Under the pieces are notes generated by a model. The model did no database searches. It was given only the letters and a program-made list of their open reading frames with translations, and was not told the origin of the DNA. A program made the position numbers and the translations under genes. 42,966 nucleotides of DNA from a virus: positions 1 through 42,966 of the IMG/VR virus record IMGVR_UViG_3300037189_010528, one strand, 5' to 3'. Shown here one piece after another: positions 16,743 through 36,957 of this stretch; positions within the stretch are counted from its first letter, which is position 1, and the number at the start of each line of letters is the position of its first letter.

Positions 16743-16755
16743 GCAGGAGAGGCAG

Positions 16756-16785: not shown

Positions 16786-16811
16786 TTGCCGTTTTTTTTT
16801 TGAAAGCCGAG

Positions 16812-16921: not shown

Positions 16922-16927
16922 TATCAA

Positions 16928-17461: not shown

Positions 17462-17480
17462 TTTTTTTTGACCCTGCGTC

Positions 17481-17578: not shown

Positions 17579-17586
17579 CAACCAAA

Positions 17587-17763: not shown

Positions 17764-17791
17764 GCCCATAACTCATAACACGGCAGAACTA

Positions 17792-17816
17792 GCCCCCGCT
17801 TCGGCGGGGGTTTTTT
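17792..17816 (+). terminator. Intrinsic terminator
   Basis: GCCCCCGC, TTCG, GCGGGGGT, then T6. Confidence 0.9.
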
Positions 17817-17850
17817 CGTTGAAAGTTTGGTGATGCGTGCGTCGCCTGGT

Positions 17851-17968
17851 TGTATTTATTTTTTCTCCGTTTTTCGAGACGCAGAAAAAAGTTTGTGTTG
17901 AAGTCTTGACTTATGGTTGAGGGTTGCTATGCTTGAAGTATCAAGCAAAGGGCTTGATAGAAAAGGGG
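17851..17968 (+). promoter_or_regulatory. Cassette control block: 16-mer, TTGACT-16-TATGCT, 5' hairpin
   Basis: 16-mer 17851-17866; -35 TTGACT 17906-17911; -10 TATGCT 17928-17933 with a TG extension; hairpin TATCAAGC 17939-17946 / GCTTGATA 17952-17959; Shine-Dalgarno AGAAAAGGGG 17959-17968. No TGTCG. Nearly identical to the block at 18661. Confidence 0.75.
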
Positions 17969-17974
17969 TTCAAA

Positions 17975-18199
17975 GTGAAGTTTGTAGTTCGTAGAGCAGT
18001 AATCGCAGTTGTTGCTGTGCCATTCGTTGCTAGTGCTTGTGTGCTTGGCTACGCAGTATTAGTTGGACTTGGTGCTGGCGCAGGTATCACGGTGAATGAG
18101 GCGTGGTCGAATGGTTGGCTAATCGCTGGCGTTGGCGCAGTCTTTTTCACTTTCGCAACTCAGGTAAATAACTTTCTAGACAAGGTTATTGGCGAGTAG
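17975..18199 (+). CDS. Two-helix membrane protein (74 aa), GTG start
   Basis: GTG 17975 follows AGAAAAGGGG by six bases. The protein starts with a basic KFVVRRAV, then a hydrophobic helix (AVVAVPFVASACVLGYAVLV), a glycine-rich turn, WSNGWLIAGVGAVFFTFATQ and a short polar tail. Two transmembrane helices with both ends probably cytoplasmic. ASAC could be read as a lipobox but no charged mature segment follows, so I favour an integral membrane protein. Function unknown. Confidence 0.65.
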   Translation: MKFVVRRAVIAVVAVPFVASACVLGYAVLVGLGAGAGITVNEAWSNGWLIAGVGAVFFTFATQVNNFLDKVIGE

Positions 18200-18214
18200 C
18201 CTAAAAGTTCAAAG

Positions 18215-18246
18215 ACCCTCTGCCGAAAGGCAGGGGGCTTTCTTTT
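18215..18246 (+). terminator. Intrinsic terminator
   Basis: CCCTCTGCC, GAAA, GGCAGGGGG with G-U pairs, then CTTTCTTTT. Confidence 0.85.
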
Positions 18247-18291
18247 GTCTGGTTCGTTGTTCGTTTTTTTTTTTTTTTTTTGCTGCCTCGC

Positions 18292-18410
18292 TGTATTTAT
18301 TTTTTCTATGGGTTCCCCTCGCGTGGCGAGGCGATTTGCTTTTGTCGCAGGACTGGGGTAGACTACTTATGTAGTCAGGAAGTCAAGGGGACTGAGGGCT
18401 ACGAAAGGGA
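18292..18410 (+). promoter_or_regulatory. Cassette control block: 16-mer, TGTCG promoter, palindrome
   Basis: A T-run of about 18 bases lies just upstream (18264-18281). 16-mer 18292-18307; -35 TTGCTT 18336-18341; TGTCG 18343-18347; -10 TAGACT 18359-18364 (17 bp); palindrome GACTAC 18361-18366 / GTAGTC 18371-18376; GTAGTC can also pair with GGCTAC 18397-18402; Shine-Dalgarno GAAAGGGA 18403-18410. Confidence 0.7.
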
Positions 18411-18418
18411 ATAACCAA

Positions 18419-18580
18419 ATGCGTTTTACTGGAATTGAAATTACTGTCTACGAGGCAGATGGCACTATTGTTGGTCAGCCTGTGTATGAGGCTCACACGG
18501 TCAAGCGTGCGATTGAAATCATTGACGCAACCAAGCAGTTGATGACTGATGGTCGAACCTTTACCTTCCGCACTATTTAG
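18419..18580 (+). CDS. Small hypothetical protein (53 aa)
   Basis: The frame reads MRFTGIEITVYEADGTIVGQ, then PVYEAHTVKRAIEIIDATKQ and LMTDGRTFTFRTI. It looks like a beta-beta-alpha-beta microdomain. The start is eight bases after GAAAGGGA, and a terminator follows. No family recognised. Confidence 0.7.
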   Translation: MRFTGIEITVYEADGTIVGQPVYEAHTVKRAIEIIDATKQLMTDGRTFTFRTI

Positions 18581-18597
18581 TAAAGTTCAAACGAAAG

Positions 18598-18630
18598 CCC
18601 TCGCCAGTTCGCTGGCGGGGGTTTTCTTTT
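18598..18630 (+). terminator. Intrinsic terminator
   Basis: CCCTCGCCAG, TTCG, CTGGCGGGGG, then TTTTCTTTTT. Confidence 0.9.
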
Positions 18631-18660
18631 TGTTCGTTGGAAGTTTGGCGTAGTGGCGAG

Positions 18661-18780
18661 TGTATTTATTTTTTCTGTGGACTTCAGTGCGACAAGAAAG
18701 ATCGATCTTGTTCGCTTGACTTTTTTCAGTTTGTTGGTATGCTTGAACTATCAAGCAAAAAGGTTGCTTGAAGTTAGGGG
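18661..18780 (+). promoter_or_regulatory. Cassette control block: last forward 16-mer, TTGACT-16-TATGCT, 5' hairpin
   Basis: 16-mer 18661-18676; -35 TTGACT 18716-18721; -10 TATGCT 18738-18743; hairpin TCAAGC 18751-18756 / GCTTGA 18766-18771; TTAGGGG 18774-18780. The 16-mer to -35 gap (40) equals that at 17851. AGATCGATCT at 18699-18708 holds the first GATC sites after 15.4 kb without one. Confidence 0.75.
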
Positions 18781-18786
18781 ACTCAG

Positions 18787-19014
18787 ATGTCAAGAACTCA
18801 CCTTCGTTGCGAGGCGTGCCACCAGTGGCACATCTCAGGCGACAACCACGCTCGCGAGTGCGTGCCTGTCGCTCCTGCCCTAGAGGGCGAAACCCTATGC
18901 GAGCGTTGCGACGGCTCGTTCCCTGCGGAAGCCCTTTTCATGGACTTCTGCCAGCCTTGCGTAGACGCGATTGACCGCGTCATGCGTGGGGACTTTAGCG
19001 GCTACGCTTTGTAG
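18787..19014 (+). CDS. Zinc-ribbon protein (75 aa), higher GC
   Basis: MSRTHLRCEACHQWHI, then LCERCDGSFPAEALFMDFCQ and PCVDAIDRV, give three cysteine pairs (CEAC, CERC, CQPC), enough for one or two zinc sites. The gene is visibly richer in GC than its neighbours (GCGAGCGTTGCGACGG) and contains GCGGAAGCCC-type codons rare in the block, suggesting a different origin. Shine-Dalgarno is TTAGGGG. It is the last forward cassette gene. Confidence 0.75.
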   Translation: MSRTHLRCEACHQWHISGDNHARECVPVAPALEGETLCERCDGSFPAEALFMDFCQPCVDAIDRVMRGDFSGYAL

Positions 19015-19036
19015 CCTCTAAGCCTTACACGGCAAA

Positions 19037-19066
19037 CCTCCAGCCTTCGGGCTGGGGGTTTTTCTT
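19037..19066 (+). terminator. Intrinsic terminator
   Basis: CCTCCAGCC, TTCG, GGCTGGGGG, then TTTTTCTTTT. Confidence 0.9.
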
Positions 19067-19101
19067 TTGCCTGCGTGGGTGCGTGGGCGAGGGACATTCC
19101 T

Positions 19102-19117
19102 AGAAAAAATAAATACA
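19102..19117 (-). repeat. Exact inverted copy of the cassette 16-mer closing the block
   Basis: AGAAAAAATAAATACA is the exact reverse complement of the 16-mer. Read leftward it follows a possible hairpin (AGCTGG 19126-19131 / CCAGCT 19139-19144). No leftward gene lies beyond it. Confidence 0.85.
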
Positions 19118-19196
19118 AATAGAGAGCTGGGTAGTTGCCAGCTACACGGCGAATGACACGGCGGATCTCCGCACATCCAATTCAACATAACTCGGT

Positions 19197-19427
19197 TCAT
19201 AGAAAGTTGAGTGCACTAAAAGTCACCACAACCTTCACTGCTCGCCCATCAATGTATGGAATAACATCAAGCAACTTTGTCGGTGCTAGTGACGCAGGCA
19301 GATTCAAATGCGCACCTTTGGCGCGGACTGACCTTAGGTAAATCCCCTGAGATTCTTTGACTGGGTTGAATGTGGCAACTAGCCCGCAGGTTGATAACTG
19401 GCAATTCAACCCAGCAACATTAGACAA
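19197..19427 (-). CDS. Possible leftward small gene (76 aa or more)
   Basis: The complementary strand is open from about 19473 to a TGA at 19197 and encodes SNVAGLNCQLSTCGLVATF, NPVKESQGIYLRSV, then PASLAPTKLLDVIPYIDG and AVKVVVTFSALNFL, which has protein-like composition. However, there is no ATG or GTG; only a TTG at 19425-19427 directly after AGGAG, with too little spacing. It may be a decayed gene or chance. The inverted 16-mer lies downstream of it in the same orientation. Confidence 0.25.
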   Translation of the reverse strand: MSNVAGLNCQLSTCGLVATFNPVKESQGIYLRSVRAKGAHLNLPASLAPTKLLDVIPYIDGRAVKVVVTFSALNFL

Positions 19428-19952
19428 CTCCTGACTGCTTGCCGAGTGCTCCGCAGGCTGTCTGAGTATCTAAGTGTTTTCTTGATTAGTTTCAGTTCCC
19501 TCAGGTAATCAGTTCCCGAACCCTCTGCCTAGAGAAATAGATGAGATGACAACTGCCCAAGAATGAGACAGTTTCAGTGTCTATTCTTAGACTCAGTTTT
19601 GAGCAAGGCTGCTGGGCTTGGTTGTCTAGTCTGCTTTGAAACTAGACAAGAGCCTTAGTCTTTGTTTGAAGTTTGAAGTCAGCCCAAAAAAGCAAGACCC
19701 CCTTGCCGTTAGGAAACAAATCTGGACACCTCCCCAAACAACGACTGCCGTCTCGCACCCCAAAAGCAGTTAGTGCCTAGTATACCATATACCCCCCTTA
19801 ATACAAATATGCCAATCCTGAAGACCCCCCATTTATAAAATCCAGCTCCACAAATTTTCAAAAAATTCGTCCGAACCTTACCATACGAGCCAAAATAATA
19901 AACGCCCCTACCCCCAAATAATCACTGAAAAAGACAGTTTTTTCTTAAAAAT

Positions 19953-20129: not shown

Positions 20130-20765
20130 ATGAAATGGCTAATTGGAATAGTCGTGGTACTAGTTCTATCGACAAGCGGATGCGTAACGCCTCCACCGGT
20201 AGACCTACAGGCCCAGTTTGTAAGGGCAGAGCTTAATGTTGTAGGCGGAGACCAAGCGGTCCTCGCCCACTACACTAAAGCGAAAACCGATGTGACAACT
20301 ACAAACACTGATCCACTGGTTCCGAAGACAGCTACAGAGCTGGCTAAGGAAAAAGGGATCATTGCAACAATACACAACAACACGATTGCTATGCACAACA
20401 TGCTAGACGCCGTTAAGGCTCGAGTTGGTCGTACATGGTACGTGTTTTCAGGTGCCAGCCCCGCAGGCTGGGACTGCTCAGGTCTTGTACTTTGGGCATA
20501 CGAACAGGTAGGCATTGAGTTACCTCATCGCGCATCTGAACAAAAGCTAGCTGGGAAGCTAACTGAGACCCCTCAGCCGGGAGACATCGTGTCTTTCACG
20601 TACAAGGGTTCTCAGTCTGCATACCACGTTGGCCTTTATCTAGGAGAGGGTATGATGATCGACGCTCCACGTCCTGGTCAATCTACTTCAATCGAATCGA
20701 TTGATAAGTTTGCCGGAAACTACAGCAAGGTCACATACACCCACATCTTGGACACAACTTTGTAG
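20130..20765 (+). CDS. Lipoprotein-type NlpC/P60 cell-wall hydrolase
   Basis: The 211-aa protein starts with MKWLIGIVVVLVLSTSGC, a signal peptide ending in a lipobox-like TSGC (C18), which predicts lipid anchoring outside the membrane. After a helical stretch, residues about 100-205 form an NlpC/P60 domain: GWDCSGLVLWAYEQVGIELP with catalytic C116, PQPGDIVSFTY, and YHVGLYLG with H166. The third catalytic position is IDAPRPG, with Asp where His is common. Such enzymes cut peptide stems of peptidoglycan. It could aid lysis, or exclude other phages at the surface. GAAAGGTAGG precedes the ATG. Confidence 0.75.
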   Translation: MKWLIGIVVVLVLSTSGCVTPPPVDLQAQFVRAELNVVGGDQAVLAHYTKAKTDVTTTNTDPLVPKTATELAKEKGIIATIHNNTIAMHNMLDAVKARVGRTWYVFSGASPAGWDCSGLVLWAYEQVGIELPHRASEQKLAGKLTETPQPGDIVSFTYKGSQSAYHVGLYLGEGMMIDAPRPGQSTSIESIDKFAGNYSKVTYTHILDTTL

Positions 20766-22746: not shown

Positions 22747-24147
22747 ATGGGTAAAAGTATTATGGAAATCCTTGCGGCTCTGCCGGAAGATGAACGAGCC
22801 CTTGCCTTAGAGGGTATGGACCCAGAAACTTTACTTTGGGATTGGTCTGTTTGGGGACGTCCAGAACAGCAAGCTCCCGAGGGCGATTGGAACATCTGGC
22901 TTGTACTTGCTGGACGTGGTTTTGGTAAGACTCGACTTGCATCTGAATGGGTTCGCGAGCAAGCGAAATATACAACTGAGGGTCAGCGACGTTTTGCACT
23001 TGTTGCTCGTACTGCAGCTGACGTGCGTGACGTTATCGTTGAAGGTGAGTCTGGCATCATGAATGTCACCCCGCCATCCGAAAAGCCACTCTACGAGCCT
23101 TCAAAGCGTCGTCTAACTTGGCCTAACGGAAATACCGCCACCCTCTTCACCGCCGATGAGCCTGACTCGCTTCGTGGTCCTCAGTTTACGCACGCATGGG
23201 GAGATGAGATTGCAGCCTGGCGTCAGACTCCGGATGCTGCAGGTATGACCGCGTTTGACAACTTACGTGTTGGTACTCGTCTCGGGTCAAAGCCAAAAAT
23301 CTTGGTCACTACAACTCCAAAAAGAACCCCGCTGCTTTACAAGCTAATTGAAGAAGCAAAAACCGGTCGTGTAGCCATTACTCGTGGTTCTACTATGGAT
23401 AACGCAGGTAACCTATCTGGTTCATATCTTGACACGATGCTTGGTGTATATGAGGGGACTTCCCTTGCTCGCCAGGAGCTCTATGGTGAAATGCTTGAGG
23501 CCATGGAGGGGGCAATGTGGACTGAGGAGATGATCGAAGCAGGTCGTGAGAGCTTCTACCCTCTTTCAACGCCTCTACGCTGTATCGGAGTTGACCCATC
23601 TGTTGCCGAGAACCCCCGTGACGAGTGCGGTATCGTTGTAGTAGCGTCTTCTGCCGAACATGACCTATATAAGCGCAATGCTTGGGTGCTCGAAGATGCT
23701 TCAGTTCACGGTTCGCCTGACGTTTGGGCCAATCAAGTTGTTAAAATGGCTAGAAAGTGGGGTTGTCCCGTTGTTGCAGAAGTTAATCAGGGTGGTGCAC
23801 TTGTACGCAATGCGATCAATACCATCGATCCAACAATCAAAGTACTTGAAGTCCACTCAAAACAAGGAAAACAGCTCCGAGCAGAGCCAATCTCACTAGC
23901 TTACGAGCAACAAAGAGTCCATCACATTGGTTATTTAGCTGATTTAGAGTCTCAAATGATCTCCTGGGTGCCTGGAGAGGGTAAATCTCCTGACCGCATC
24001 GATGCTCTGGTTCACGCCCTTACAGCACTGCTAATTAAGCCTCCAGCGGGCTTTTCGGGCGGTAAAATCCGTGCAAAGAGCATGTCAGACCGTAAAATTG
24101 GTCTTCCACAGACAGGAAGAGGCGGAAGTACATTCCGAGTACGATGA
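22747..24147 (+). CDS. terL: Terminase large subunit
   Basis: The 466-aa protein has the ATPase Walker A GRGFGKT at residues 56-62 (K61), Walker B HAWGDEIAAW with D153 and E154, and the coupling segment ILVTTTPKRTPLL. The C-terminal nuclease domain starts with CIGVDPSVAENPRDECGIVV (D283 as a metal ligand) and includes a later Asp-rich PGEGKSPDRIDALVHAL. It packages DNA into proheads and cuts it. Length is typical. No Shine-Dalgarno precedes the ATG. The next gene overlaps by ATGA. Confidence 0.92.
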   Translation: MGKSIMEILAALPEDERALALEGMDPETLLWDWSVWGRPEQQAPEGDWNIWLVLAGRGFGKTRLASEWVREQAKYTTEGQRRFALVARTAADVRDVIVEGESGIMNVTPPSEKPLYEPSKRRLTWPNGNTATLFTADEPDSLRGPQFTHAWGDEIAAWRQTPDAAGMTAFDNLRVGTRLGSKPKILVTTTPKRTPLLYKLIEEAKTGRVAITRGSTMDNAGNLSGSYLDTMLGVYEGTSLARQELYGEMLEAMEGAMWTEEMIEAGRESFYPLSTPLRCIGVDPSVAENPRDECGIVVVASSAEHDLYKRNAWVLEDASVHGSPDVWANQVVKMARKWGCPVVAEVNQGGALVRNAINTIDPTIKVLEVHSKQGKQLRAEPISLAYEQQRVHHIGYLADLESQMISWVPGEGKSPDRIDALVHALTALLIKPPAGFSGGKIRAKSMSDRKIGLPQTGRGGSTFRVR

Positions 24148-24816: not shown

Positions 24817-26544
24817 TTGGGAATTTTTAAACGCACCCCAAAAAATGAAGATCAGCGCTTTCGAGCACCTGGCCTTCGTGCGACAGCGCCACGCTCAGCA
24901 ACTCCGATTGCTCCTGGAATCTCTGTAGATGCATTTGGCCTAGTTTACGCTGAGCCAGCCGCATACAACACTCCTAGACCCCTAACAGCTGCCGCTGCCC
25001 AAATTCGTATGGACGATAAGGGAGAGGCTGAACGCTTTAAGTCCCGCCGCCAATCAGCCGCATCTTCTTGGCAGACCGAAGCATGGGAGTATTACGATGC
25101 AATTGGAGAAATTAAGTATGCATTCAATCTTGTTGCAGCTGTGGTATCTCGCATCCGCATTTACGCTGCTGTTGTAGATGATCCAGCCGAGGCTCCAGTA
25201 CCACTAAACAAGTCAAAGACTGTTGACAAAGACCTGGCCGCGGCCGCTGAGCGTGCTTTGGCCAGACTTGATTCAGCCTATGGTGGCCAGGCAGGTCTTC
25301 TTAAGGATGCTGCTCTAAATCTTCAGGTGACTGGTGAATGCTACCTAGTCCAGATTCCAGAACGTCTAGGCTCTCAGCTCCCTGAGTCATGGGATATTCG
25401 TTCGGTTGACGAGCTACAGATTAATGCCAAGGGTCAGTACGTAATTAACCCGATCCGCGATGTTGGCGGAGGCTCTTCAGCTACTGGAAGTAAAAACGTT
25501 CTTCTTCTTCCAAAGGATGCTTTCATTGGTCGCATCTGGAAGGCGCACCCTCGCTACTCTCTAGAGTCTGACTCTTCACTACGAGGTCTGCTTGACCTTT
25601 GTGCTGAACTACTTCTACTTAACCGTACTTTCCGTGCAACCGCACGCTCTCGCCTCAACGCTGGTGCTCTTTATTTGCCAGATGGTCTTTCTGTTGCCGC
25701 TGCACCAGACCCTGACTATCCATATGACGAGAACGGCGAGTACAACGAGCAGTACAACACAGAAGAAGCTGCTGATGACTTCGAAGATCAACTCATCGAT
25801 GCAATGACCACTCCGATTAAGGACGAGGATTCTGCATCTGCAGTTGTTCCGCTTCTTATTCGTGGTCCTGCAGAACTTGGTGACAAGATCAAGCAGTTCA
25901 AGTTCGAGCGTTCATTCGATGACTCACTCGTTGCTCGTGCTGACCGAGTACTGGATCGCATCATGCAGGGACTAGACGTTCCTAAGGACGTTGTGACAGG
26001 CCTAGCAAACGTTAAGTACTCGAACGCGCTTCAGATTGATGAAGGTCTCTACAAGGCGCACATCGAGCCTCTGATGCTTCTTATTGCAGATGCTCTAACT
26101 GTTGTCTACCTACGCCCATACCTAAAGTCAATTGGCTATACCGAAGCCGACGTTGATCGAATCCATATTTGGTATGACCCAAGTCAGGTTGCTACCCGTA
26201 ATGACCGAGCAACCGATGCTGATTCTGGGTTCGAGAAGATGGCTGTTAGCTTCGACACATGGCGTCGTGCTCATGGGTTCTCGGATCAGGATGCCCCTAC
26301 TCCTTCAGAAGTAGCCCTTCGTCTAATTCTGGAGAAGGGTGCAATCACCCCTCAGCTAACCGAGTCCCTACTTGCTGCAGTTGCTCCAGATGTTATCAAT
26401 CTAACTCGTGAAGTATCGCAGGCTGAATCAGGAGCACCAATCCCTGAGGATGTAGATCAGATGATCCAAAATGGACAGCCAGCAGCTCCGGCTGAAGCTC
26501 CAGCCACAACCCCCGCTCCTCCCCTAGCAGAACCAAAGGTATAA
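24817..26544 (+). CDS. Portal protein, TTG start
   Basis: The 575-aa protein has the size and features of actinobacteriophage portal proteins: a disordered N-terminus, WEYYDAIGEIKYAFNLVAAV, a beta barrel (LQVTGECYLVQIPE), the stem/clip region with LLLNRTFRATARSRLNAGAL, VLDRIMQGLDVPKDVVTG and KYSNALQIDEGLYKAHIEPL, and a Pro/Ala-rich tail. The start is TTG 24817 preceded by AGGGAGACCCA. Portals form the dodecameric ring through which DNA enters and leaves. Its stop codon lies inside the TATAAT of the next gene's promoter. Confidence 0.85.
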   Translation: MGIFKRTPKNEDQRFRAPGLRATAPRSATPIAPGISVDAFGLVYAEPAAYNTPRPLTAAAAQIRMDDKGEAERFKSRRQSAASSWQTEAWEYYDAIGEIKYAFNLVAAVVSRIRIYAAVVDDPAEAPVPLNKSKTVDKDLAAAAERALARLDSAYGGQAGLLKDAALNLQVTGECYLVQIPERLGSQLPESWDIRSVDELQINAKGQYVINPIRDVGGGSSATGSKNVLLLPKDAFIGRIWKAHPRYSLESDSSLRGLLDLCAELLLLNRTFRATARSRLNAGALYLPDGLSVAAAPDPDYPYDENGEYNEQYNTEEAADDFEDQLIDAMTTPIKDEDSASAVVPLLIRGPAELGDKIKQFKFERSFDDSLVARADRVLDRIMQGLDVPKDVVTGLANVKYSNALQIDEGLYKAHIEPLMLLIADALTVVYLRPYLKSIGYTEADVDRIHIWYDPSQVATRNDRATDADSGFEKMAVSFDTWRRAHGFSDQDAPTPSEVALRLILEKGAITPQLTESLLAAVAPDVINLTREVSQAESGAPIPEDVDQMIQNGQPAAPAEAPATTPAPPLAEPKV

Positions 26545-26551
26545 TATTACT
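26540..26551 (+). promoter_or_regulatory. Perfect -10 TATAAT placing the transcript start on the dps-like ATG
   Basis: TATAAT 26540-26545 is exactly 12 bases before ATG 26552, and there is no Shine-Dalgarno. No -35 is visible in the C-rich upstream sequence. Confidence 0.5.
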
Positions 26552-27004
26552 ATGAATCAGACTTCAATCCCAGTAGCAGAAAAACTAGCTGCCCTAGTAA
26601 GCACTCTAGTAACTGCAAAATTTATTGCACACGGATATCACTGGAACGTAAAGGGTAGGGACTTCAAGGAGTTCCACTTCTTCTTCGAAGAGATCTACAA
26701 CGACTACGACAGTGCTATTGACCCTACTTCCGAGAACATTCGTAAGCTCGGCTTCGATGCCCCATACCTTCTGAATGACTTCCAGGAGATGACCCTAGTT
26801 AACGAGGATCGCATCGAGGATGGAAACATCGATGCAATGCTTGCTTCTCTTGTTCGTGTAAATCAGATCCTTCTAGACCTATGTGTCGAGACATTTGCAG
26901 TAGCAACCGATGCTAACGAGCAGGGTATTGCTAACTTTATTGCAGAACGTATTGACAAGCACCAGTTCTGGAACTGGCAGCTCACTTCATCTCTGTCTGC
27001 CTAA
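26552..27004 (+). CDS. Dps-like ferritin (DNA-binding protein from starved cells)
   Basis: The 150-aa protein has the Dps ferroxidase ligands in exact family spacing: H30 (GYHWNVKG), H42 (EFHFFFEE), E46, D57 and E61 (DPTSENIRKLG), corresponding to E. coli H51, H63, D67, D78 and E82, with Glu replacing one Asp. Helices BC and D follow (LASLVRVNQILLDLCVETFA, IANFIAERIDKHQFWNWQL). Dps dodecamers oxidise and store iron and many bind DNA; the Lys-rich tail used by E. coli Dps is missing here. The gene sits between portal and capsid genes and ends at a terminator, so it may be made late or packaged. Confidence 0.85.
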   Translation: MNQTSIPVAEKLAALVSTLVTAKFIAHGYHWNVKGRDFKEFHFFFEEIYNDYDSAIDPTSENIRKLGFDAPYLLNDFQEMTLVNEDRIEDGNIDAMLASLVRVNQILLDLCVETFAVATDANEQGIANFIAERIDKHQFWNWQLTSSLSA

Positions 27005-27021
27005 TAGCTTTAATCGACAAG

Positions 27022-27047
27022 CCCGACTGCTTTGTAGTCGGGTTTTT
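27022..27047 (+). terminator. Intrinsic terminator
   Basis: CCCGACT, GCTTTGT, AGTCGGG, then TTTTTC. Confidence 0.85.
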
Positions 27048-27153
27048 CGTCTATCTTTCCAAATAACCTACTGGGCTATTCTGTAAACTTTAAGTAGGCG
27101 ATTTTGTGTTGCGATAAACTTACCTCACTTCTGTCATTAATCGAAGGATACAG

Positions 27154-30147
27154 ATGTCTTACCTAGACAAACTAAACCAAGCCCTTACTGCTGCATCAAT
27201 TCCGGGCACCGGGTCTGGAGCTAACAAAGGTTTCTGGGAGCACCAGCTTCGCGATGATCACGGTAAGTGGATGGAGATGGGCCGCGGGTCACTCTTTGAC
27301 ATCATTAAAGATGGCATTAAAAAGACCCTGCATGGTATCTTTATCGGTCCAGATCTAAATAATCCTGGAAATGGTAACTTCCTAGTTCGTGAAAAAGATG
27401 GAACAAAAAACGTTGTCTCTGTTCCTTCTCACTTGGTTCGCCAATATAAGGCTGGAATCTCTAGTGAAGAACTCAAGCGTCAGGGAATCGAGACCAAGCA
27501 GGGTGGTCACATTGGTGACAACATCGCTCCGCTTGAAACTATCCAACTAAATGATAAAAATGTACGTCCAGCAACTGCTGAAGACGAGCGTATGGCATCT
27601 ATCGTTCCAGATAAGAAGCAGCAGAAGATCATTGATGAAGCTCGCGCAAACCACCCTCTAGCAAATGCTCCTGCGGGTGCCGAAAAGGGTATGGATCAAA
27701 TTCCAACCACCCCTGAAACTAAAGTTGAACCAGCATCTGTAGATGATGCTGCATCTAAGCTTTGGAATGATGCCGCTTATGGTGATGGTGCCAACCTTGA
27801 TGATGCTATTAAGGCAATTCAAATTTCAGCAGCTAATGGTCCAGCTGGGTTTGACGTCATCGACAAAGAAGCTAAAGATCTTAAAAAGGACGACGAGGTA
27901 GTAGATAATAAAAATAAACCTGTTGGTCGAATTACGGACATACGTGTTCAGAATGGCAAATACGATTTTATAATTACAACCCCTGATCGTAAGACGATTA
28001 GTTACTCTGCAGGTCCGAACGATAAGATCGGTACCGCCGTGGCTAAGAAGACAGCAGCACCGGCAACACCTAAGAAAGCAGCAAAGGCTAAGCCGGTTCC
28101 TGCATTTAAGCCTGCCACCTCAAAGCAGGTTGACGAACTCGACAACCTAGCTGACAAGATCAGCAATGATGCAAATATTGATCCAGCTTTGAAGAAGAGC
28201 TATGACGATATTGTATCTAAACTTGATAATGCCGAAGATGTATCCTCTGACGAAGCAAAGACTGTTCTTGATCAGGTTAAAGCTCACTATGGTCAGAAGA
28301 CTACACCTAAGGCTGCCCCTACCATTGTTGCACCTAAGAAGGCACCTGCTGCAGCTAAAGCAACTCCAAAGACTAGCAAGAAGACTGCTTCAGAAATTGC
28401 TCTTGCTAAAAAGCGTATGGATGACGGCAGCGACATTACCCTAAACACTAATGGAAAGTCTGAAGAAGACCTACGTAATCTAAAGCTAGATCCTCTCATG
28501 GATGAGAATGGTCAGCCTCTTCGCGATCCTAATAATCCTAAGAAGATCATTCAGGACCCTAATGCGGGCATTAACGGGCTACTTGATAATTTCCCTGATG
28601 CTAAGGTCCAGGGAGACAATGACCGTATTATCCTAGAGCGTCGCGACTACACAGACGTTGATGGTAAAGAATACAAGTTCGAACTAGGTGTATCAAGAAC
28701 CTATGGAAACCAGTTCATTCAGCACTATAAGTTTACCGATAAAACTACAGGTGAAGTAAAGGAATTCCAGGCTGCTGACTACAAAGATTCTTTTGCCGGA
28801 ATTTTTAGTAAGACTAACGGAATTCTTCGTATGCGCGATCAGCTTCTCGGCGAGGATATTCCTGGTAAGAAACTTACTCGCGAGCTTTCTACCTATTTTG
28901 GTCCTAACAAAAATCTAGATCAGCGACTCAAGTACTACCGTAAGGGTTCTGATTTATATGGATACCGACTAGTAACTCCAAAAGAAAACATCAAGAAATT
29001 CCTTGATGGAACTGACCCTAAGTACAACATGAGTATGGCTCAGACTGGTGTTGGTCCAAATGGCGAGGCACGCTATCAGTTCGGAAACGTTATGCGTGGT
29101 CAGGTATCTCCTTTCTGGAAGTCTATGGAGGACAAGGACTGGAACGGAATGAAGTTCCGTATTACTCAGCTTCTTGGAAGAATGCCAGATAGTCCTGAAT
29201 CACGTAAGTTGCTAGTTGATACCTTACGCGAAGAGACTATTTCACACTTTAAGGGTGTCAAGAAGGCTAAGAGTTACCAGACTTATGCTAACTTGCTCGA
29301 CAAGTATATGGCCAGCAACAATGTTGACCTACGTGACATCAATAGAACCCCATACATTATGGGTGATGGAAATACCGTTGCTAAGGTAGGAGACAAAGTC
29401 TTCTACTTCCCGAACCACGATGAATACTCGGTTGGTAGAATTGTTGGGTTCCAGCCAGCTAGTGGAAAGAATGGCGGATATCACGATACAGCCAGTATTC
29501 AATTTGCTGATGGAACAGTTATAAATAATCTACAAACTAGAAACTCATTCCCAGCTGGGCCTGATTCAGAGTTTGGAGACTCGGATCTGACTGACTACTC
29601 TGCAAATGTTAAGCTAGACAATAAACTAGCACTACGTAAGGCAATGCTCGGCCCTGCACTTGATGCATTTAATAAAAAGCGTGAGTCTGATAAGGCAGCA
29701 AAAGAGGGTAGAACCGCCCCATCTAGCGCCAACCCACCTTCTGCTCCAGACTCTACAGATAACTCTGATGATGTCGCTAACCCTAATGCTGGTGCTCCGT
29801 ACATTAACAGTAATGGCCAGCAAACCAACTCCAACGGGCAGGTTATTAGCGATGACTCTACTAGCCCTACTCCTGATGCCGCGGCTCCTGATAGTGCAAT
29901 AAACACCACCGACGAAACCGGCAAGGATGCTACACCTGAAGCACCTAAGGAAGGTAACGTAACCAAGCTTCAGCCAAACGATAGCTGGTATGACGAGAAC
30001 GGTGACTACAAGGGTGTTGTAGTAGAAACTCAAGAAGTTCCTGCTCAGGATGGTGGAGAGCCTGGCTTAGCTGTGTTCTACATCGATGAGAATGGCGATG
30101 AGCAGGTAGAGATTGTAGAGAAGAGCGAGAACCGCGGCCCAAAATAA
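27154..30147 (+). CDS. Large virion-associated protein, first part of a frameshifted polyvalent protein
   Basis: The zero-frame product is 997 aa and ends SENRGPK at TAA 30145. It begins with an N-terminal motif common in actinobacteriophage head proteins (FWEHQLRDDHGKWMEMGRG), then repeated low-complexity Ala/Lys/Pro linkers (KKTAAPATPKKAAKAKPVPA), a central globular domain (DRIILERRDYTDVDGKEYKF to MASNNVDLRDI), and KVGDKVFYFPNHDEYSVGRI, which looks like a small beta barrel. The last 150 residues are Ser/Pro/Asp-rich and end in PNDSWYDENGDYKGVVVETQ. No catalytic motif recognised in this part. A -1 frameshift at CCCAAAA would extend it by 980 residues. AAGGATACAG precedes the ATG. Confidence 0.8.
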   Translation: MSYLDKLNQALTAASIPGTGSGANKGFWEHQLRDDHGKWMEMGRGSLFDIIKDGIKKTLHGIFIGPDLNNPGNGNFLVREKDGTKNVVSVPSHLVRQYKAGISSEELKRQGIETKQGGHIGDNIAPLETIQLNDKNVRPATAEDERMASIVPDKKQQKIIDEARANHPLANAPAGAEKGMDQIPTTPETKVEPASVDDAASKLWNDAAYGDGANLDDAIKAIQISAANGPAGFDVIDKEAKDLKKDDEVVDNKNKPVGRITDIRVQNGKYDFIITTPDRKTISYSAGPNDKIGTAVAKKTAAPATPKKAAKAKPVPAFKPATSKQVDELDNLADKISNDANIDPALKKSYDDIVSKLDNAEDVSSDEAKTVLDQVKAHYGQKTTPKAAPTIVAPKKAPAAAKATPKTSKKTASEIALAKKRMDDGSDITLNTNGKSEEDLRNLKLDPLMDENGQPLRDPNNPKKIIQDPNAGINGLLDNFPDAKVQGDNDRIILERRDYTDVDGKEYKFELGVSRTYGNQFIQHYKFTDKTTGEVKEFQAADYKDSFAGIFSKTNGILRMRDQLLGEDIPGKKLTRELSTYFGPNKNLDQRLKYYRKGSDLYGYRLVTPKENIKKFLDGTDPKYNMSMAQTGVGPNGEARYQFGNVMRGQVSPFWKSMEDKDWNGMKFRITQLLGRMPDSPESRKLLVDTLREETISHFKGVKKAKSYQTYANLLDKYMASNNVDLRDINRTPYIMGDGNTVAKVGDKVFYFPNHDEYSVGRIVGFQPASGKNGGYHDTASIQFADGTVINNLQTRNSFPAGPDSEFGDSDLTDYSANVKLDNKLALRKAMLGPALDAFNKKRESDKAAKEGRTAPSSANPPSAPDSTDNSDDVANPNAGAPYINSNGQQTNSNGQVISDDSTSPTPDAAAPDSAINTTDETGKDATPEAPKEGNVTKLQPNDSWYDENGDYKGVVVETQEVPAQDGGEPGLAVFYIDENGDEQVEIVEKSENRGPK

Positions 30148-30183
30148 ATAGGGCTGAGGGTCCTAGCTCAGGGCCGTCAGCCC
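30138..30183 (+). promoter_or_regulatory. Programmed -1 ribosomal frameshift signal
   Basis: Heptamer C CCA AAA (30138-30144) is directly followed by the zero-frame TAA. After a 6-base spacer, GGGCTGA 30151-30157 pairs with TCAGCCC 30177-30183, and GGTCC 30159-30163 with GGGCC 30171-30175, separated by one G-G mismatch and closed by a 7-base loop. The -1 frame is then open for 980 codons with no start codon for its first 106 codons. Confidence 0.8.
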
Positions 30184-33086
30184 CTAAGGTCTCATCTACT
30201 CGAAAGTTTGACACATCCGGGCTAAGGCCTACCAGATCGGCTAAGACATCCTCAGATAGTTCATCTAAACCTGCAACTAGAACTAACTTCGACCCTAGCT
30301 GGGCCTCGCTAGGTAATCTTGAAGATTACATCTATGGCACTATTCCTGCCGAGCATAACGATAAGGAACTAGATAGCTTAGTTCAAAGGGTACGTAAGGC
30401 TCGTCAAGCTGGCGATACTGCTGAATACAAAGATGCAATAGTTGATCTACTTAATGCTCACATGAGCAGCTTCAAAGATTCCGAGGCATATACTCCATAC
30501 GACTATAAGTCTGATGGATTCCTCGGCCCTAAAGAGGTAGCGATGATTAACGCTCGCTTCCGCAATAAGACGCGTCAAGGCACTCAAGCAAAGACTCTGG
30601 ACACAGATTTTAACGATACGATCACTGCATATAGAAGTGCTATGCCTCGTATTGATAATCTATACTCTGGAGTTCCCGGAAGCTGGGATATTAAAGGTGC
30701 TAAAGCAGATGCAACCGAGGCATTCGACGAGAACTATAAGGCTCTTACTGGTAACTTTAATATCCGACCTGCCGAAGCTAAATATACAGCTCAAAGGGAA
30801 GTAATAAAGAATCTTAAGCTTAAGAGTACAGATCAAAAGTTCTCTAACATTAAGGTAACTGATGCTGATACTGGAAACAGTATCTATGTCCACATGACTG
30901 TAGATGACTCTGGAAAGCTAAACCCTAAAGCAACACCAGAAGACTTTGCAGCAGCTGTTGCGGGTCTCAAAGCCGTGAGGACTGGTGGCCTGTACAGAGG
31001 AACCGTAAACCTTCACCTATTAGATAATAAGAGTTCTGTCCCAGAAAATCTAAGCGGGATAAATGACAACACTGTTGCATTTACTTTTGATGGGGCTAAC
31101 GCTGTAAGAGTTTATGTAGACCGCGTACATGGTCAGGTAGAAGCAGCCAAGGCAAACCCTGGCTACTGGTCTACTGATATTACAGACAACACTAGTGCTA
31201 TGAAGCATTTTGTTGCTCACGAGGTACTTCACCAGATTGCTGATGAAATCTACGGTTCCGGAACAGCCAAGTCACTCTCTGACGATATGCGCAAGTTCTA
31301 CAATAAAGAGCTTAATGGGACAAAGGCACCTGCTGTAGATACATCCGTAAGCGCCGATGTGCAAAAGATTGTAGACAGTCAAAAGGCTTCAGAAGATCTT
31401 TCCAACTGGAAGCAAGTTGGGCGTCAGATGGGATCTAATGATGGAGGAACCTTTGAAGATCCAGCCACTGGTAAGCAGATATATGCTAAGTTTCCTAAGA
31501 CCGTTTTGCATGGAGAAAACGAGCGTCTAGCTTCAGCCCTCTATCAAGCAATGGGAATTGGATCTACAAATATTGTATCTGGCACAGTTGGGGGTAGATC
31601 GGCAACATATTCAGAAATGATTCCTGGAGTTAAAACCGACTTTAACTCAAAACTTAGCGACCCTTCTTACCTAAAAAAGGTTCAAGAGGGCTTTGCGGCT
31701 GACGCATTCCTAGCCAACTGGGACTCTGTTCTAAATGACAACATAGTTAGCGATGCTAATGGCGACCCTATTCGCATCGATCCAGGAGGGTCACTTCTCT
31801 TCCGTGCTCAGGGCGGGGCTAAGGGTACAGCTTTTGGAGATTCAGTACTAGAGCTAGATACTCTAACATCTGGACATCAAAACCCTACTGCAGTGTCTAT
31901 CTTTGGAAAGATGACCCAGCAGCAAAAGATTGACAGCGCCAAGAGAGTTCAAAGCCTAAAAGAGTCAGATATTGATTCATTGGTTGACAGCATTATCACT
32001 GACCCTACTGCTGCTCAGCAGCTAAAAACAACTCTTAAGAACCGTAGATCTTATATTCTTAACAAGTTCGGTCTAGGTGACTCGGCTGACGCTGCTAGCG
32101 TTCAAGAAAAAGCTCATGCGGCTAGCAACCAAACCATCCCTGCAGTAAGTATTCGCGGTGCGGCTGGAGATAGTGAAAACTTCGCTGAGCTAGGTGCTAA
32201 ATATGTTCTGACCGGTGAAGCTCCGGACTGGTTCGTGGCAATGCTTGAATCTCGCGGCATTGCTAAAGCTAAAGTAAGCACTCTATGGCGTCAAGCAGTT
32301 ACTGGAATTAAATCTAATCTTCTAGGTTTTATCGATAAAATACGCCATGAAAATAATAGTGGCACATCTCCGGAATCAGATGCATCCCTATATACGCCAT
32401 CGTCAAGAGGGTATGGATCTAGGTCTCATGGTATCCTTGGTGCCGCTTCTGCCCACAAATTAGCTAGATTAAACGGAGTTAGAGAGAATACCCCTCAGAT
32501 AGTTGATGACTTCACTCCTGGCTGGAAGACAATCTTCCGCGGTGTTGGTGGACTAGACGTTAATGGGAAATACAAGAGTGCCAGAGAGCTACAGAGAGAC
32601 TTTTCGACAACTAAAGACCCTTACTATTCTGATAAGGGTGGAACCATGTATGGTGATGGCATATACTTCTCAACAAGTAAGTCAGAATCGGACAGTTATG
32701 GACGCAATAATAATTCCAGGGATAATGAAACCCTAGAGGTGGCAGTTGATCCAAATGCAAAAATCTATGTAGTAGGTAGAGCATCGAGAATAGGAGCAAC
32801 TAAGGGTAACGGTGATACTGACATCGATGATGTGCAGGCTCAAATAAAGGACCTACTTAAGTCAATTGTTCTTAATGAAGAGCATCCTGAGCTAGATGTT
32901 ACTGATTCTACGGTATCAAGTAAAATTAGCGCTCTATATCACGCACTACCTACCGAAAGCCCTAACGGTGCAAGTCAAAGTAATATGGCCTTCCTACTTG
33001 GCTATGATGCAATAGAGTTTGCAAATGGCTATGTTGTTGTCCTAAATAGAGGTATACTTCAGGTTAGAAAGAAAGATATCGCATAA
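30144..33086 (+). CDS. Second part of the polyvalent protein: HEVLH, kinase-like and ADP-ribosyltransferase-like segments
   Basis: Reading in the -1 frame continues INRAEGPSSGPSAPKV, then NFDPSWASLGNLEDYIYG; the first ATG is at 30462 and lacks a Shine-Dalgarno. Numbering from that ATG: HEVLH at 253-257 is a zinc-peptidase-like motif. Residues 330-540 resemble a HipA/PI-kinase-type fold, with K343 (IYAKF), E near NERLASALYQAMG, ADAFLANWDSVLNDNIV (D421) and IRIDPGGSLLF. The C-terminus resembles an ADP-ribosyltransferase: TIFRGVGG (R693), YGDGIYFSTSKSE (S737) and YDAIEFANGYVVVLNRG. Such multi-toxin-like fusions are known as polyvalent proteins, delivered with phage DNA to act on host defence. 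Individual activities are inferred from motifs. Confidence 0.75.
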   Translation: MNRAEGPSSGPSAPKVSSTRKFDTSGLRPTRSAKTSSDSSSKPATRTNFDPSWASLGNLEDYIYGTIPAEHNDKELDSLVQRVRKARQAGDTAEYKDAIVDLLNAHMSSFKDSEAYTPYDYKSDGFLGPKEVAMINARFRNKTRQGTQAKTLDTDFNDTITAYRSAMPRIDNLYSGVPGSWDIKGAKADATEAFDENYKALTGNFNIRPAEAKYTAQREVIKNLKLKSTDQKFSNIKVTDADTGNSIYVHMTVDDSGKLNPKATPEDFAAAVAGLKAVRTGGLYRGTVNLHLLDNKSSVPENLSGINDNTVAFTFDGANAVRVYVDRVHGQVEAAKANPGYWSTDITDNTSAMKHFVAHEVLHQIADEIYGSGTAKSLSDDMRKFYNKELNGTKAPAVDTSVSADVQKIVDSQKASEDLSNWKQVGRQMGSNDGGTFEDPATGKQIYAKFPKTVLHGENERLASALYQAMGIGSTNIVSGTVGGRSATYSEMIPGVKTDFNSKLSDPSYLKKVQEGFAADAFLANWDSVLNDNIVSDANGDPIRIDPGGSLLFRAQGGAKGTAFGDSVLELDTLTSGHQNPTAVSIFGKMTQQQKIDSAKRVQSLKESDIDSLVDSIITDPTAAQQLKTTLKNRRSYILNKFGLGDSADAASVQEKAHAASNQTIPAVSIRGAAGDSENFAELGAKYVLTGEAPDWFVAMLESRGIAKAKVSTLWRQAVTGIKSNLLGFIDKIRHENNSGTSPESDASLYTPSSRGYGSRSHGILGAASAHKLARLNGVRENTPQIVDDFTPGWKTIFRGVGGLDVNGKYKSARELQRDFSTTKDPYYSDKGGTMYGDGIYFSTSKSESDSYGRNNNSRDNETLEVAVDPNAKIYVVGRASRIGATKGNGDTDIDDVQAQIKDLLKSIVLNEEHPELDVTDSTVSSKISALYHALPTESPNGASQSNMAFLLGYDAIEFANGYVVVLNRGILQVRKKDIA

Positions 33087-33087
33087 T

Positions 33088-33558
33088 ATGAATCCTGCAT
33101 TTTTTCAAACTAATCAGCGAGTAGCCGATGCGCTATTCAACTCTGTAGACGCAGACTACTATAGCTCTGACGGAGAAACCTGGGATCCGTATGCTGATAC
33201 TGTCTATTTCAACGAGACTACTGCTAAATATAATGCCAGTCTCCTAAAGGAGGCGGCTGAAAAAGAGCTAAAAGCCGAGTCTCTAGATGACCTGTCTCCA
33301 GCCCTATCAGAGTTTATACTCCGTGTTGAAAAGCGAGTAGCTGAGCGAGCATCCTCGCCGTTAGAGCGTAATTATAAGACTAATATTGGCTATACCTATG
33401 AAGATCCTAAATCTGGAAAAAAGGTTAGAGGCTATCTAGATATTAAGAATGCTTCTGATGCAGATCTTCAATCTATAATTGATGATGTACCTGAGGCAAG
33501 ACTAGAGCTTATGTATAGGGCTATAACCCAGGTAAACAGCAACAACACTAATGAATAA
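33088..33558 (+). CDS. Hypothetical protein (156 aa)
   Basis: It begins one base after the stop of the polyvalent ORF. Acidic and helical (SLLKEAAEKELKAESLDDLS, LSEFILRVEKRVAER), then a short beta segment (YTYEDPKSGKKVRGYLDIK) and a helical end. No family recognised. The tight spacing suggests it is co-translated with the polyvalent protein; it might be an immunity or chaperone partner, but there is no direct evidence. Confidence 0.65.
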   Translation: MNPAFFQTNQRVADALFNSVDADYYSSDGETWDPYADTVYFNETTAKYNASLLKEAAEKELKAESLDDLSPALSEFILRVEKRVAERASSPLERNYKTNIGYTYEDPKSGKKVRGYLDIKNASDADLQSIIDDVPEARLELMYRAITQVNSNNTNE

Positions 33559-33621
33559 TAGTGGTAAAATAATAATATACTCTATAGAGAGATATTTCCG
33601 CTCGTCAGCAGAAAGAAACCA

Positions 33622-33987
33622 ATGGCAGACAATGTAGTAAATGTATGGTTCTACGTGAACCCTCAGACTAATGCTATCGATGGAGTATATGCGTTTTCCC
33701 CTATGGGAATATTTATTCGTCAGAATGCTGACTGGGACTTCACTACTCGTGAAGAAAGCCGTATTGACACTGATCTTAATAACGATGATGTATACCAGCT
33801 CGACTGGGATACGGATGAAGCTGAAATCGATAACTCGTTTATGTCTGAAGGCTCTGATCCTGACCACATTGCGGTAAAAATGTATGACAACGGTGAGCTA
33901 GACCTTAGCGAACTGGAAAAGTACGCAGATAAGATTTATGACCACAGCGACTTCACTCCAGCTAGCGATAATTTAACGGAGCAGTAA
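33622..33987 (+). CDS. Hypothetical acidic protein (121 aa)
   Basis: VVNVWFYVNPQTNAIDGVYA begins a beta-rich acidic protein with a long Asp/Glu region (DVYQLDWDTDEAEIDNSFMS). AGAAAG precedes the ATG. The 63-bp gap before it contains GGTAAAAT and the palindrome CTCTATAGAG (33582-33591), a possible promoter/operator. No family recognised. The next gene starts directly after its stop. Confidence 0.65.
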   Translation: MADNVVNVWFYVNPQTNAIDGVYAFSPMGIFIRQNADWDFTTREESRIDTDLNNDDVYQLDWDTDEAEIDNSFMSEGSDPDHIAVKMYDNGELDLSELEKYADKIYDHSDFTPASDNLTEQ

Positions 33988-36957
33988 ATGTTCGAGTACC
34001 TAGGCACATCGGGTAACTTTTCTCTTTTCTCTCATGGGGATAAAGCGGTTATAGTTGACACCGAACTTAACCTCATTACCAACTCTGGCTCTTTGTCAAC
34101 CCTAAAATCAGAGTTCTCTAAGGACTCTTTTGAGGTACCATCTGCGGAAGTTATTGGCCTAGTAAACGATCACTTTATTATTCCTAATATTAAATCTGTA
34201 CTAGCCTCTGGTGATGGTAATCGCATGTATACCATTCCTGGTGGAGTTCAGGCAGAAGCAAAGAAGGCGCTCAAGTGGCGTCATGAGGCAAAGCGTGGCG
34301 GCACTCCTGTTGGATTAAATACAGCTCGCACCCTTGCAAGAGGTGGCCAGATTGGCATCGAAAAGGTTCGACACATTGCCAAGTATTTTCCTCGTCATGA
34401 AGTCGATAAAAAGGCTCCTGGATTTAACCCTGGAGAAGATCACTTCCCATCTAACGGTCGTATTGCATGGGCTCTCTGGGGTGGAGATGCCGGGCAGCGC
34501 TGGGCATCTGCAATTGTAGAGCGCGAAAATAAAAAGGCTTTAACTGCCGGTGCTTACGGTATTCCTGGATATGAAGAGGCGCTAGAGAACTACGGTATGC
34601 CAGCAAATGGTTTCCAAGATGCTCAGGAATTAAGCGAAAATCAGGGACCAGAATTTATTGCACGTGTTCGTCATGATGCAACTGGAATTGACCGTCTATA
34701 TATGATCGACATCAATGCAGAAGTATTTGTATGGGATGGCGGCGAGTGGGACTCAATGGGCGATGTTGATGGTGACATTTACTCGTATGACCAGGCCCTG
34801 GATGATGTCTACGACAACTGCGAAAAAACTCACGTAATGATTGACCCGGCATCTGCGGTCATTCTTGCTGCTCGCTTCATCGAAAATGACTACACCCCTG
34901 TAAGCCTGGACGATATTAACGAAGAAGAGGCGGCTTTAGCAGCCGAAGCAATCGAGAATATTGACTGGTCACTAGTAGAATATGCTATGACCGCTGCGGG
35001 AGATACAGAAGATACCAAGCTTGTCCCGAAAATCAGCCCTATTGATACAACCGGAATTCTTGGTGAACCTAGAAACTCGGACAGATCTCACATTGCTAAG
35101 CTCAGTGTTTCAATCCCAGCCCTAACTGCTCGCGAGCTAAAAGATACTCTAACTTCTTGGACTGTCTATGTTATTCAGACTCGCAAGAACAATAAACTTC
35201 AGAATATAACTGCCGCAGCTGCTACTAAAGAATTAACTCCAGATAATACAGATGTACCAGCTAAATATCTAGCAATTGTTTCTCCAGATGACCTACAGGC
35301 TGTTATGGATGTTATTGCTATTGTTCCTAGTAGCGATAAGACTACTGCTCCTACCACTTACCGTCGTCAAGACAAGCAGTGGGTTCGAGATGATCAAATT
35401 CTTGCAGATCTAAAATCAGCAACTCCTCCTCCAGTAGTTAAGTTAGATACTCCAGAGCTTCTAAACGATGTTCTTGCTCAGGCTGATGGTCTAAAGGGCG
35501 TTACCGCTAGTGCGCTCGCGCTTGCCCCTCTCTGGGAGCGTAATCTAGTTTCCCTAATTGCTAGCCTCTCTGCTGCCGGCGGATTAGACCGCAACCGCGG
35601 CAATGCAGAAAAACTTCGTCGCTACTGGGTACACGGAGAAGGTGCTGCCAAGATTCGTTGGGGCCAACCTGGCGACTGGTCACGCTGTGTTCGCCACCTG
35701 GCTAAATATCTAGGACCACGCGCTAAAGGCTACTGCCAGCTTCGTCACAAGGAAGCTACTGGCATGTACACCGCTACCCACGCAGCCAAAGACCGTTACA
35801 AGCAGTTCTCTTCTGATGAATTCATCATGGAAGAAGTTTGGGGCGAAAATATCGGTGAGCCAACAAAGGTTACTGACCGCGATCTATTAATGCCTCTAGA
35901 TGACGTATTCAAAAAGAACGCTGACGACCCTCTTTACGATGAGAGTTGGACTCCTGAGCCTGAAATTGAAGACATGCTTCAGGATGATGGCTGTAAAGAA
36001 GAGATGTGTAACTTCTCGACCGTTTCCGACCACTCTGCTGAAGATCCTTGCTGGGATGGTTACAAGCAGATTGGCTTTAAGGATAAGGATGGAAGACACG
36101 TCCCTAACTGCGTACTAGCTAGTGCAATTACTGCTGCTGGTGGACTAGATCGTAACAGAGGTAATGCCGAACAGCTTCGTCGTTATTGGACTCACGGGGC
36201 TGGTGCTCTTAAGATTCGTTGGGGTACTCCTGGAGACTGGACCCGTTGCGTTCGTCACCTATCTAAGTACCTAGGACTTAGGGCAAAGGGCTATTGCCAG
36301 CTGCGCCACAAGGAAGCGACTGGTGTTTATACCGGAAGCCGATTTAACCCTGGTCACAAGCAGAATACTTTTGGCAATGTAGAAGAATTCAATACAGCAG
36401 TAATCGAAGCAGCCGCACTAGCAGCTCGCGCTAACGATGCTCGCTCTAAGTTTGCCTTAGTTGCAAGTGCCGGAGAAGAAACCGACATTGCTCCAGGTTC
36501 TAGATTTACTATTCCTCTGCTAGTTCCAGAAGGCGTGGAATCAGGCGATGGACGTAAGTTTAAAGCTAATGCTATCGATATCCGTGAACTACCTCTACCT
36601 CTTCTGTGGCAGATTCAGACTGGCGAGGGTCACAATGGTTCAGTTGTAGTTGGTCGTATTGACAAGCTAGAACGAATCCCTGGCGGGCTTGGTAATGCAG
36701 AAGGTGTATTTGACAACGGTCCTTATGGCCGTGAGGCAGAGCGTCTGGTTCGAGGAGGATTCCTTCGTGGAGTTTCCGCAGACCTTGATCAGTTTGAAGC
36801 AAAAGAAGATGCCTCACCGGAAAATGCCGAAGACAGTGGTGAAGATCTTGGTAAGAAGAAGATGACCATTAATCACGCACGTGTAATGGCTGCTACAATT
36901 GTAGCTAAGCCTGCATTCCAAGAATGCTGCATCGAACTCGGCGCTGGCGCGGTTTAA
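33988..36957 (+). CDS. Capsid maturation protease-containing polyprotein with duplicated motifs
   Basis: The 989-aa protein is modular. Residues about 85-180 hold a motif of actinobacteriophage head proteins (WRHEAKRGGTPVGLNTARTL, HEVDKKAPGFNPGEDHFPSN, GRIAWALWGGDAG). A cysteine-containing block occurs twice, near 531 and 718: GGLDRNRGNAEKLRRYW, then KIRWGQPGDWSRCVRHL and GYCQLRHKEATGMYT. The C-terminal 150 residues, from FTIPLLVPEGVESGDGRKFK through GEGHNGSVVVGRIDKLE (H882) to GGFLRGVSADLDQFE, fit the prohead protease domain of actinobacteriophages. It would process scaffold and capsid. In many phages the following ORF's N-terminal domain is part of the same protein; here it is separate. Confidence 0.75.
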   Translation: MFEYLGTSGNFSLFSHGDKAVIVDTELNLITNSGSLSTLKSEFSKDSFEVPSAEVIGLVNDHFIIPNIKSVLASGDGNRMYTIPGGVQAEAKKALKWRHEAKRGGTPVGLNTARTLARGGQIGIEKVRHIAKYFPRHEVDKKAPGFNPGEDHFPSNGRIAWALWGGDAGQRWASAIVERENKKALTAGAYGIPGYEEALENYGMPANGFQDAQELSENQGPEFIARVRHDATGIDRLYMIDINAEVFVWDGGEWDSMGDVDGDIYSYDQALDDVYDNCEKTHVMIDPASAVILAARFIENDYTPVSLDDINEEEAALAAEAIENIDWSLVEYAMTAAGDTEDTKLVPKISPIDTTGILGEPRNSDRSHIAKLSVSIPALTARELKDTLTSWTVYVIQTRKNNKLQNITAAAATKELTPDNTDVPAKYLAIVSPDDLQAVMDVIAIVPSSDKTTAPTTYRRQDKQWVRDDQILADLKSATPPPVVKLDTPELLNDVLAQADGLKGVTASALALAPLWERNLVSLIASLSAAGGLDRNRGNAEKLRRYWVHGEGAAKIRWGQPGDWSRCVRHLAKYLGPRAKGYCQLRHKEATGMYTATHAAKDRYKQFSSDEFIMEEVWGENIGEPTKVTDRDLLMPLDDVFKKNADDPLYDESWTPEPEIEDMLQDDGCKEEMCNFSTVSDHSAEDPCWDGYKQIGFKDKDGRHVPNCVLASAITAAGGLDRNRGNAEQLRRYWTHGAGALKIRWGTPGDWTRCVRHLSKYLGLRAKGYCQLRHKEATGVYTGSRFNPGHKQNTFGNVEEFNTAVIEAAALAARANDARSKFALVASAGEETDIAPGSRFTIPLLVPEGVESGDGRKFKANAIDIRELPLPLLWQIQTGEGHNGSVVVGRIDKLERIPGGLGNAEGVFDNGPYGREAERLVRGGFLRGVSADLDQFEAKEDASPENAEDSGEDLGKKKMTINHARVMAATIVAKPAFQECCIELGAGAV

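Follow-up and report, generated by a model that had tools for sequence, protein, structure and literature searches.

Phage-encoded Dps has so far been interpreted as an intracellular stress gene, or was listed unexplained in virion mass-spectrometry. In the phiEco32-like podophages (SU10 CDS67, Privateer QIN94861, and 7-11 gp073), the dps genes lie among middle and nucleotide-metabolism genes. The Dps of Privateer was detected by mass spectrometry with CsCl-purified virions (PMC7881722), and that of SU10 gave six peptides in a PEG-precipitated preparation, possibly together with non-virion proteins (PMC4281155). Standalone Dps proteins are encoded by Streptomyces phage Comrade (phrog_3636), Lactobacillus phages, and gut Gratiaviridae, and Dps is also known in Streptomyces BE phages. 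The proteins of the Lactobacillus phages (PMC6669764) and the gut phages (PMC8008677) were interpreted as help against intracellular reactive oxygen species. Several cultured phages carry Dps among nucleotide-metabolism genes, and the neighbors of other standalone phage copies were mixed (Hsp20, replication initiation, endolysin), with no bias toward head genes.

The window, i.e., the whole stretch of DNA analyzed here, is a virus record of 42,966 bases, a fragment whose plus strand encodes a tailed-phage head module. It contains a gene for a 150-aa Dps-family ferritin (26552–27004, plus strand). This Dps is phage-encoded as in the phiEco32-like podophages; however, their genes are neither portal-adjoining nor protease-fused, and their products show low identity to the window protein. 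It is standalone like the proteins of Comrade, the Lactobacillus phages, and Gratiaviridae, whereas the Comrade and Lactobacillus phage genes lie outside the head module.

Gene order and junctions of dps

All genes of the head module were on the plus strand, and the neighbors of dps were called with a simple ORF picker. The terminase large subunit gene (22747–24147; PF03237/PF17289) was followed by the portal gene (24817–26544; phrog_776, 6e-105), which lay directly upstream of dps and is its conserved neighbor. Further downstream were the genes for the head maturation protease (36924–39047; phrog_18402, 4e-58), the major capsid protein (39140–41239; phrog_777, 9e-77), and a tail protein (from 42470), which placed dps between the portal gene and the protease and capsid genes. 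Large proteins filled the region 27154–36957 between dps and the protease. The one next to dps (997 aa, 27154–30147) had been called a polyvalent protein in the preliminary description. The placement of dps behind the portal in the head module was correct, and the "polyvalent" label was not backed by any family, with zero Pfam, PHROG, or NCBIfam model matches in profile searches. Stretches homologous to this protein were found downstream of dps in many relatives. An 874-aa head-module protein (30462–33086) had a weak PARP-like match (20.1 bits, under the cut-off of 26.7), and by its sequence it is possibly an ADP-ribosyltransferase. Another, of 989 aa (33988–36957), contained phrog_2859, a module found joined to Dps in other phages.

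Elsewhere in the window, positions 10000–19500 contained many short ORFs with a strong positive GC skew (about 0.11–0.22), resembling a small-gene phage region. A 211-aa ORF (20130–20765) matched minor tail protein families (phrog_329, 1e-25), and its position ~2 kb before the terminase gene is odd for a tail gene. No tRNAs were detected in the window.

The portal was closest to that of DSL-LC01, a metagenome-assembled lake phage genome (69.9% identity) assigned to Actinomycetia (PMC10611076), and the portals of large Microbacterium phages were ~61–65% identical to it. The host of the window phage is likely actinobacterial, judging from these portal relatives. No dps was present at the post-portal site of DSL-LC01 and Pumpernickel, and no Dps matches were obtained among Microbacterium, Arthrobacter, and Gordonia phages. 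Dps is thus not essential for this head type, since the nearest named relatives (portals about 61–70% identical) gave no Dps match.

The survey of related phages covered the top 80 viral-contig homologues of the portal, ranked by similarity, and its rate holds for this clade. Four of these contigs ended within ~100 bases of the portal, and 76 were assessable. In 74 of the 76, dps was found directly behind the portal gene; in the two exceptions (L074 and L079), another protein occupied its place. The gap between portal and dps was 1–3 nt in 61 of the 74 loci, and the ORF after dps overlapped or abutted it in 53 of 71. Identity was 70–83% for the portal and 38–58% for Dps, and pairwise dN/dS was about 0.03–0.17 in the pairs listed, which indicated purifying selection. 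An isolated or decaying gene was ruled out by this synteny and these dN/dS values.

The gene had been described as beginning at 26540, with a leaderless promoter of its own. The real ORF is 26552–27004, and position 26540 is the start of a TATAAT that lies outside the gene. This hexamer (26540–26545) overlaps the portal stop codon (26542–26544; ..AAG GTA TAA T..) and consists of the last codons of the portal gene (GTA-TAA) plus a T. It had no −35 element and for that reason was not among the promoter-like sites of the window, and it occurred in just two of 77 portal-dps junctions; TATAAT was found six times in the window vs. 13.8 expected by chance. Instead, an AGG/GAGG-type ribosome-binding site was kept in 73 of the 77 junctions. 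In most relatives, a conserved ..CCAGAGG.. immediately preceded the ATG, which began 1–3 nt past the portal stop; a −10 box at that place would touch the ATG and could not produce a leaderless transcript. The promoter was therefore abandoned. In the window, the stretch before the ATG (26535–26551, plus strand) comprised AAAGG (26535–26539) and a spacer; this is likely an ordinary ribosome-binding site with a spacer 6 nt longer than usual, and dps is likely co-transcribed with the portal gene. The terminator described at the end of dps was confirmed as an intrinsic one (27015–27049, plus strand; −21.4 kcal/mol, z −5.3), with its U-run at the foot of the hairpin stem. Similar terminators followed dps in just five of 50 other loci tested.

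Properties and phylogeny of the Dps protein

Profile, structure, and ligand evidence agreed that the protein is a Dps ferritin. It matched Pfam PF00210 at 48.2 bits (cut-off 24.5), phrog_3636 at 3e-21, and 29 Dps-like PDB sequences (E up to 0.001; best 8ff9, 5.6e-15). The AlphaFold monomer model had a pLDDT of 97.2, with helices at residues 3–32, 38–65, 74–80, 93–120, and 124–149, i.e., a ferritin-like four-helix domain plus the short BC helix. Like bacterial Dps such as Pseudomonas aeruginosa PA0962 (PDB 8ff9; PF00210), it has the fold (TM 0.94), the H-x-HWN motif, and the ferroxidase ligands. Unlike PA0962, to which it is 26% identical, it is acidic, lacks a basic tail, and is encoded in a head module, and the phage copies form their own clade.

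The five ferroxidase ligands were all present as described (H30, H42, E46, D57, and E61, numbered from the ATG), with the spacing H-x11-H-x3-E-x10-D-x3-E. H30, H42, D57, and E61 were invariant in 59 of 59 distinct phage proteins, and all 53 fused copies had the four corresponding residues; this conservation in the fused copies favored retained metal chemistry. Position 46 was E in just seven of 51 portal-linked homologues, and E46 is therefore a ligand of the window protein but not of the family as a whole. The position was variable in cellular Dps too (E in 55 of 79 sampled), and acidic residues at position 50, considered as a substitute ligand where position 46 is degenerate, showed a weak inverse pattern that made this at most a tentative candidate.

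The protein was acidic (pI 4.5, net charge −12), and the portal-linked set had a mean charge of −10.9, with ~1.3 basic and 2.2 acidic residues among the first 12. The Lys/Arg-rich terminal tail of the E. coli-type, DNA-compacting Dps was absent from it. Classical DNA compaction, one of the functions suggested earlier, was thus disfavored, and iron and peroxide chemistry appeared more likely.

An LG[IVLMT][RKQ] C-terminus, mostly LGVR or LGIR, was found in 41 of 51 portal-linked Dps (e.g., L036, L061, and L102) vs. one of 80 cellular ones. These ends resemble the cargo peptides of encapsulins. As a capsid-targeting tag, the motif was kept only as a lead: the window Dps ends in LTSSLSA and does not have it, and cellular Dps often end in LGGR-type sequences. 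No recognizable capsid-targeting sequence was seen in the window Dps, which is a separate protein.

In a quick maximum-likelihood tree, which contained some long branches and a cellular sample drawn with one peptide pattern, the Dps of viral contigs together with L119 formed a single clade, separate from 79 cellular Dps (SH-aLRT 97). Portal-linked Dps and the Dps of the L005-type fusions grouped together in this tree (96). A recent pickup from a sampled host was not supported, because the best cellular matches had 28–36% identity vs. 38–58% among the portal-linked phage copies. The one match at 47% was on a contig binned as a Gammaproteobacteria MAG (L119, CAIOZF010000052.1). This contig looks like phage DNA, with the gene for a major head protein (phrog_2522, 3e-101) directly before dps.

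Dps domains in capsid-maturation proteins

Scans yielded 228 Dps-bearing viral loci, some of which may be one contig fetched twice. In 63 of them, Dps was inside an ORF of more than 260 aa, and 41 of 53 fused proteins scanned matched the head maturation protease phrog_80. Five architectures were distinguished. In the first (L005 type, ~20 contigs), the order phrog_2859–HAD–Dps–Peptidase_S78 protease was encoded between the portal and capsid genes. In the second, Dps lay between the protease and an acidic, scaffold-like tail. The third belonged to the lineage of the window: in L205, L313, L333, and L334, the homologue of the window protease carried a fused Dps domain behind the protease, directly before the capsid gene. 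The capsid and tail proteins were the same in these four sister phages, and the protease-fused domain was the only Dps on each contig. In the fourth, Dps formed the N-terminus of a larger protein encoded immediately after a window-type portal (L201, L207, L274, and L307), and in the fifth (L237) it was combined with a zeta-toxin domain. Protease-Dps or protease-Dps-scaffold fusions thus occurred in three phage lineages, including that of the window and two unrelated to it. In another lineage (L119 and relatives), Dps was the gene right after the capsid gene. Among viral proteins, two annotated as "Prohead protease" of uncultured caudoviruses (UniProt A0A6J7XDU5 and A0A6J7WPK9) were some of the closest to the window Dps in fold; there Dps is fused to the protease, whereas the window Dps is separate.

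Procapsids enclose HK97-type maturation proteases and scaffolds, so a domain fused between the two would be delivered inside. On balance, we consider it more probable than not that the window gene encodes a ferroxidase-active Dps serving as procapsid or virion cargo. The earlier suggestion of a virion Dps gained strong, though indirect, support from the synteny, the protease fusions, and the swapping of the module described below. Counted against the cargo reading were the separate, tagless state of the window Dps, the variable position 46, and the absence of Dps from the nearest named relatives.

Exactly one Dps was found on each of 17 contigs of the window lineage. In G001, G002, and G004, portal and capsid genes were both present, and the single Dps was fused to the protease, with none behind the portal. 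This indicated that Dps occupies either of two positions in the head module. The main rival explanation is that Dps is produced alongside the head proteins and sequesters iron and peroxide in the host cell during DNA replication and packaging, acting as an intracellular, late-infection antioxidant that stays outside the particle. It would agree with the unfused window Dps without a targeting tag, with the standalone phage copies among non-structural genes, and with how Dps of Lactobacillus and gut phages has been interpreted in print (PMC6669764; PMC8008677). However, it leaves unexplained the repeated fusion to maturation protease and scaffold, the fixed portal linkage, and the occurrence of a lone Dps at one or the other of two sites in the head module, and the Dps of Privateer was seen with CsCl-purified virions. 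We therefore regard it as rather unlikely, at perhaps one chance in a few. Standalone copies elsewhere, with mixed or nucleotide-metabolism neighbors, do show that Dps does not need a head module.

Gain or loss of the domain was evident in the second architecture. Contigs L397 (with Dps) and L404 (without) had 98.4% DNA identity over 5,575 flanking bases and 98.0% over 4,129, and their difference was confined to the segment between protease and scaffold. Among protease-scaffold forms, 27 loci had Dps and 37 untruncated ones did not; both forms recurred in several metagenomes, which argued against an assembly error. Dps therefore rides on the capsid-assembly protein as a passenger that can be swapped in or out, and assembly does not need it. 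This bears on a second alternative, in which the Dps domain was recruited for its oligomerization, as a scaffold or core component or a portal partner, with incidental iron chemistry. The place of Dps between protease and scaffold and next to the portal would suit such a part, as would the degenerate fifth ligand of many copies. Near-identical capsid-assembly proteins occur without Dps, however, as do relatives with the same head proteins, and four ligands are invariant in all copies; the alternative thus appears improbable.

Possible role of Dps in the phage head

For the cargo reading, the following steps are proposed. Dps would be expressed with the portal and neighboring head genes. It would probably assemble as the usual 12-subunit shell, and probably bind and oxidize Fe(II) at the inter-subunit ferroxidase sites. 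It may enter the assembling head close to the portal or in company with the maturation-protease/scaffold complex, stay with the packaged DNA, and limit Fenton damage to it within the particle or once inside a newly infected cell. More broadly, several tailed-phage lineages may load an active Dps into the head via a "cargo slot," either portal-adjoining or inside a protease-scaffold polyprotein, so that the virion would carry its own iron-scavenging antioxidant; we give this generalization an even chance.

A further alternative holds that the iron core of a virion Dps aids entry via host iron uptake (the "Ferrojan horse") or feeds iron to the infected cell. The idea has been put forward along with the mass-spectrometric detection of a ferritin-like protein in a Vi01-like phage (PMC10892097), and the Dps fold implies iron storage. 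No reliance on the iron-uptake genes TonB or FeoB was seen in that study (PMC10892097), and the window Dps is encoded with the head rather than the tail. We consider this alternative very improbable.

Neither fusion nor portal linkage of Dps was found described in the literature outside subscription papers. The new element here would be the link of phage Dps to capsid assembly, and virion Dps itself has precedent. The repeated coupling of Dps to capsid maturation, with clean gain and loss of the domain, offers a natural route for packing an enzyme into a head. It makes questions testable about iron in aquatic phage particles and about virion enzymes that shield the genome from reactive oxygen. 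The same coupling could also be exploited as a natural means of loading cargo into engineered capsids.

Three minor observations concern the proteins around Dps. The zeta-toxin fusion in L237 (5440–7833, plus strand) was a protein of 798 aa (Zeta_toxin, PF06414) resembling polyvalent phage proteins. The phrog_2859 module was repeatedly fused to or encoded near Dps across different phage lineages (the window protein 33988–36957, L005, L019, L212, L284, and L333). A small motif, PCW(E/D)GYKQ(I/V)GM...MVPNC (phrog_36547/9737), was recurrent in head-module proteins and in genes adjoining standalone Dps; its carriers included the window protein 33988–36957 (residues 671–722), the fused protein of L201, and the protein that replaces Dps after the portal in L074 (6791–8038) and L079.
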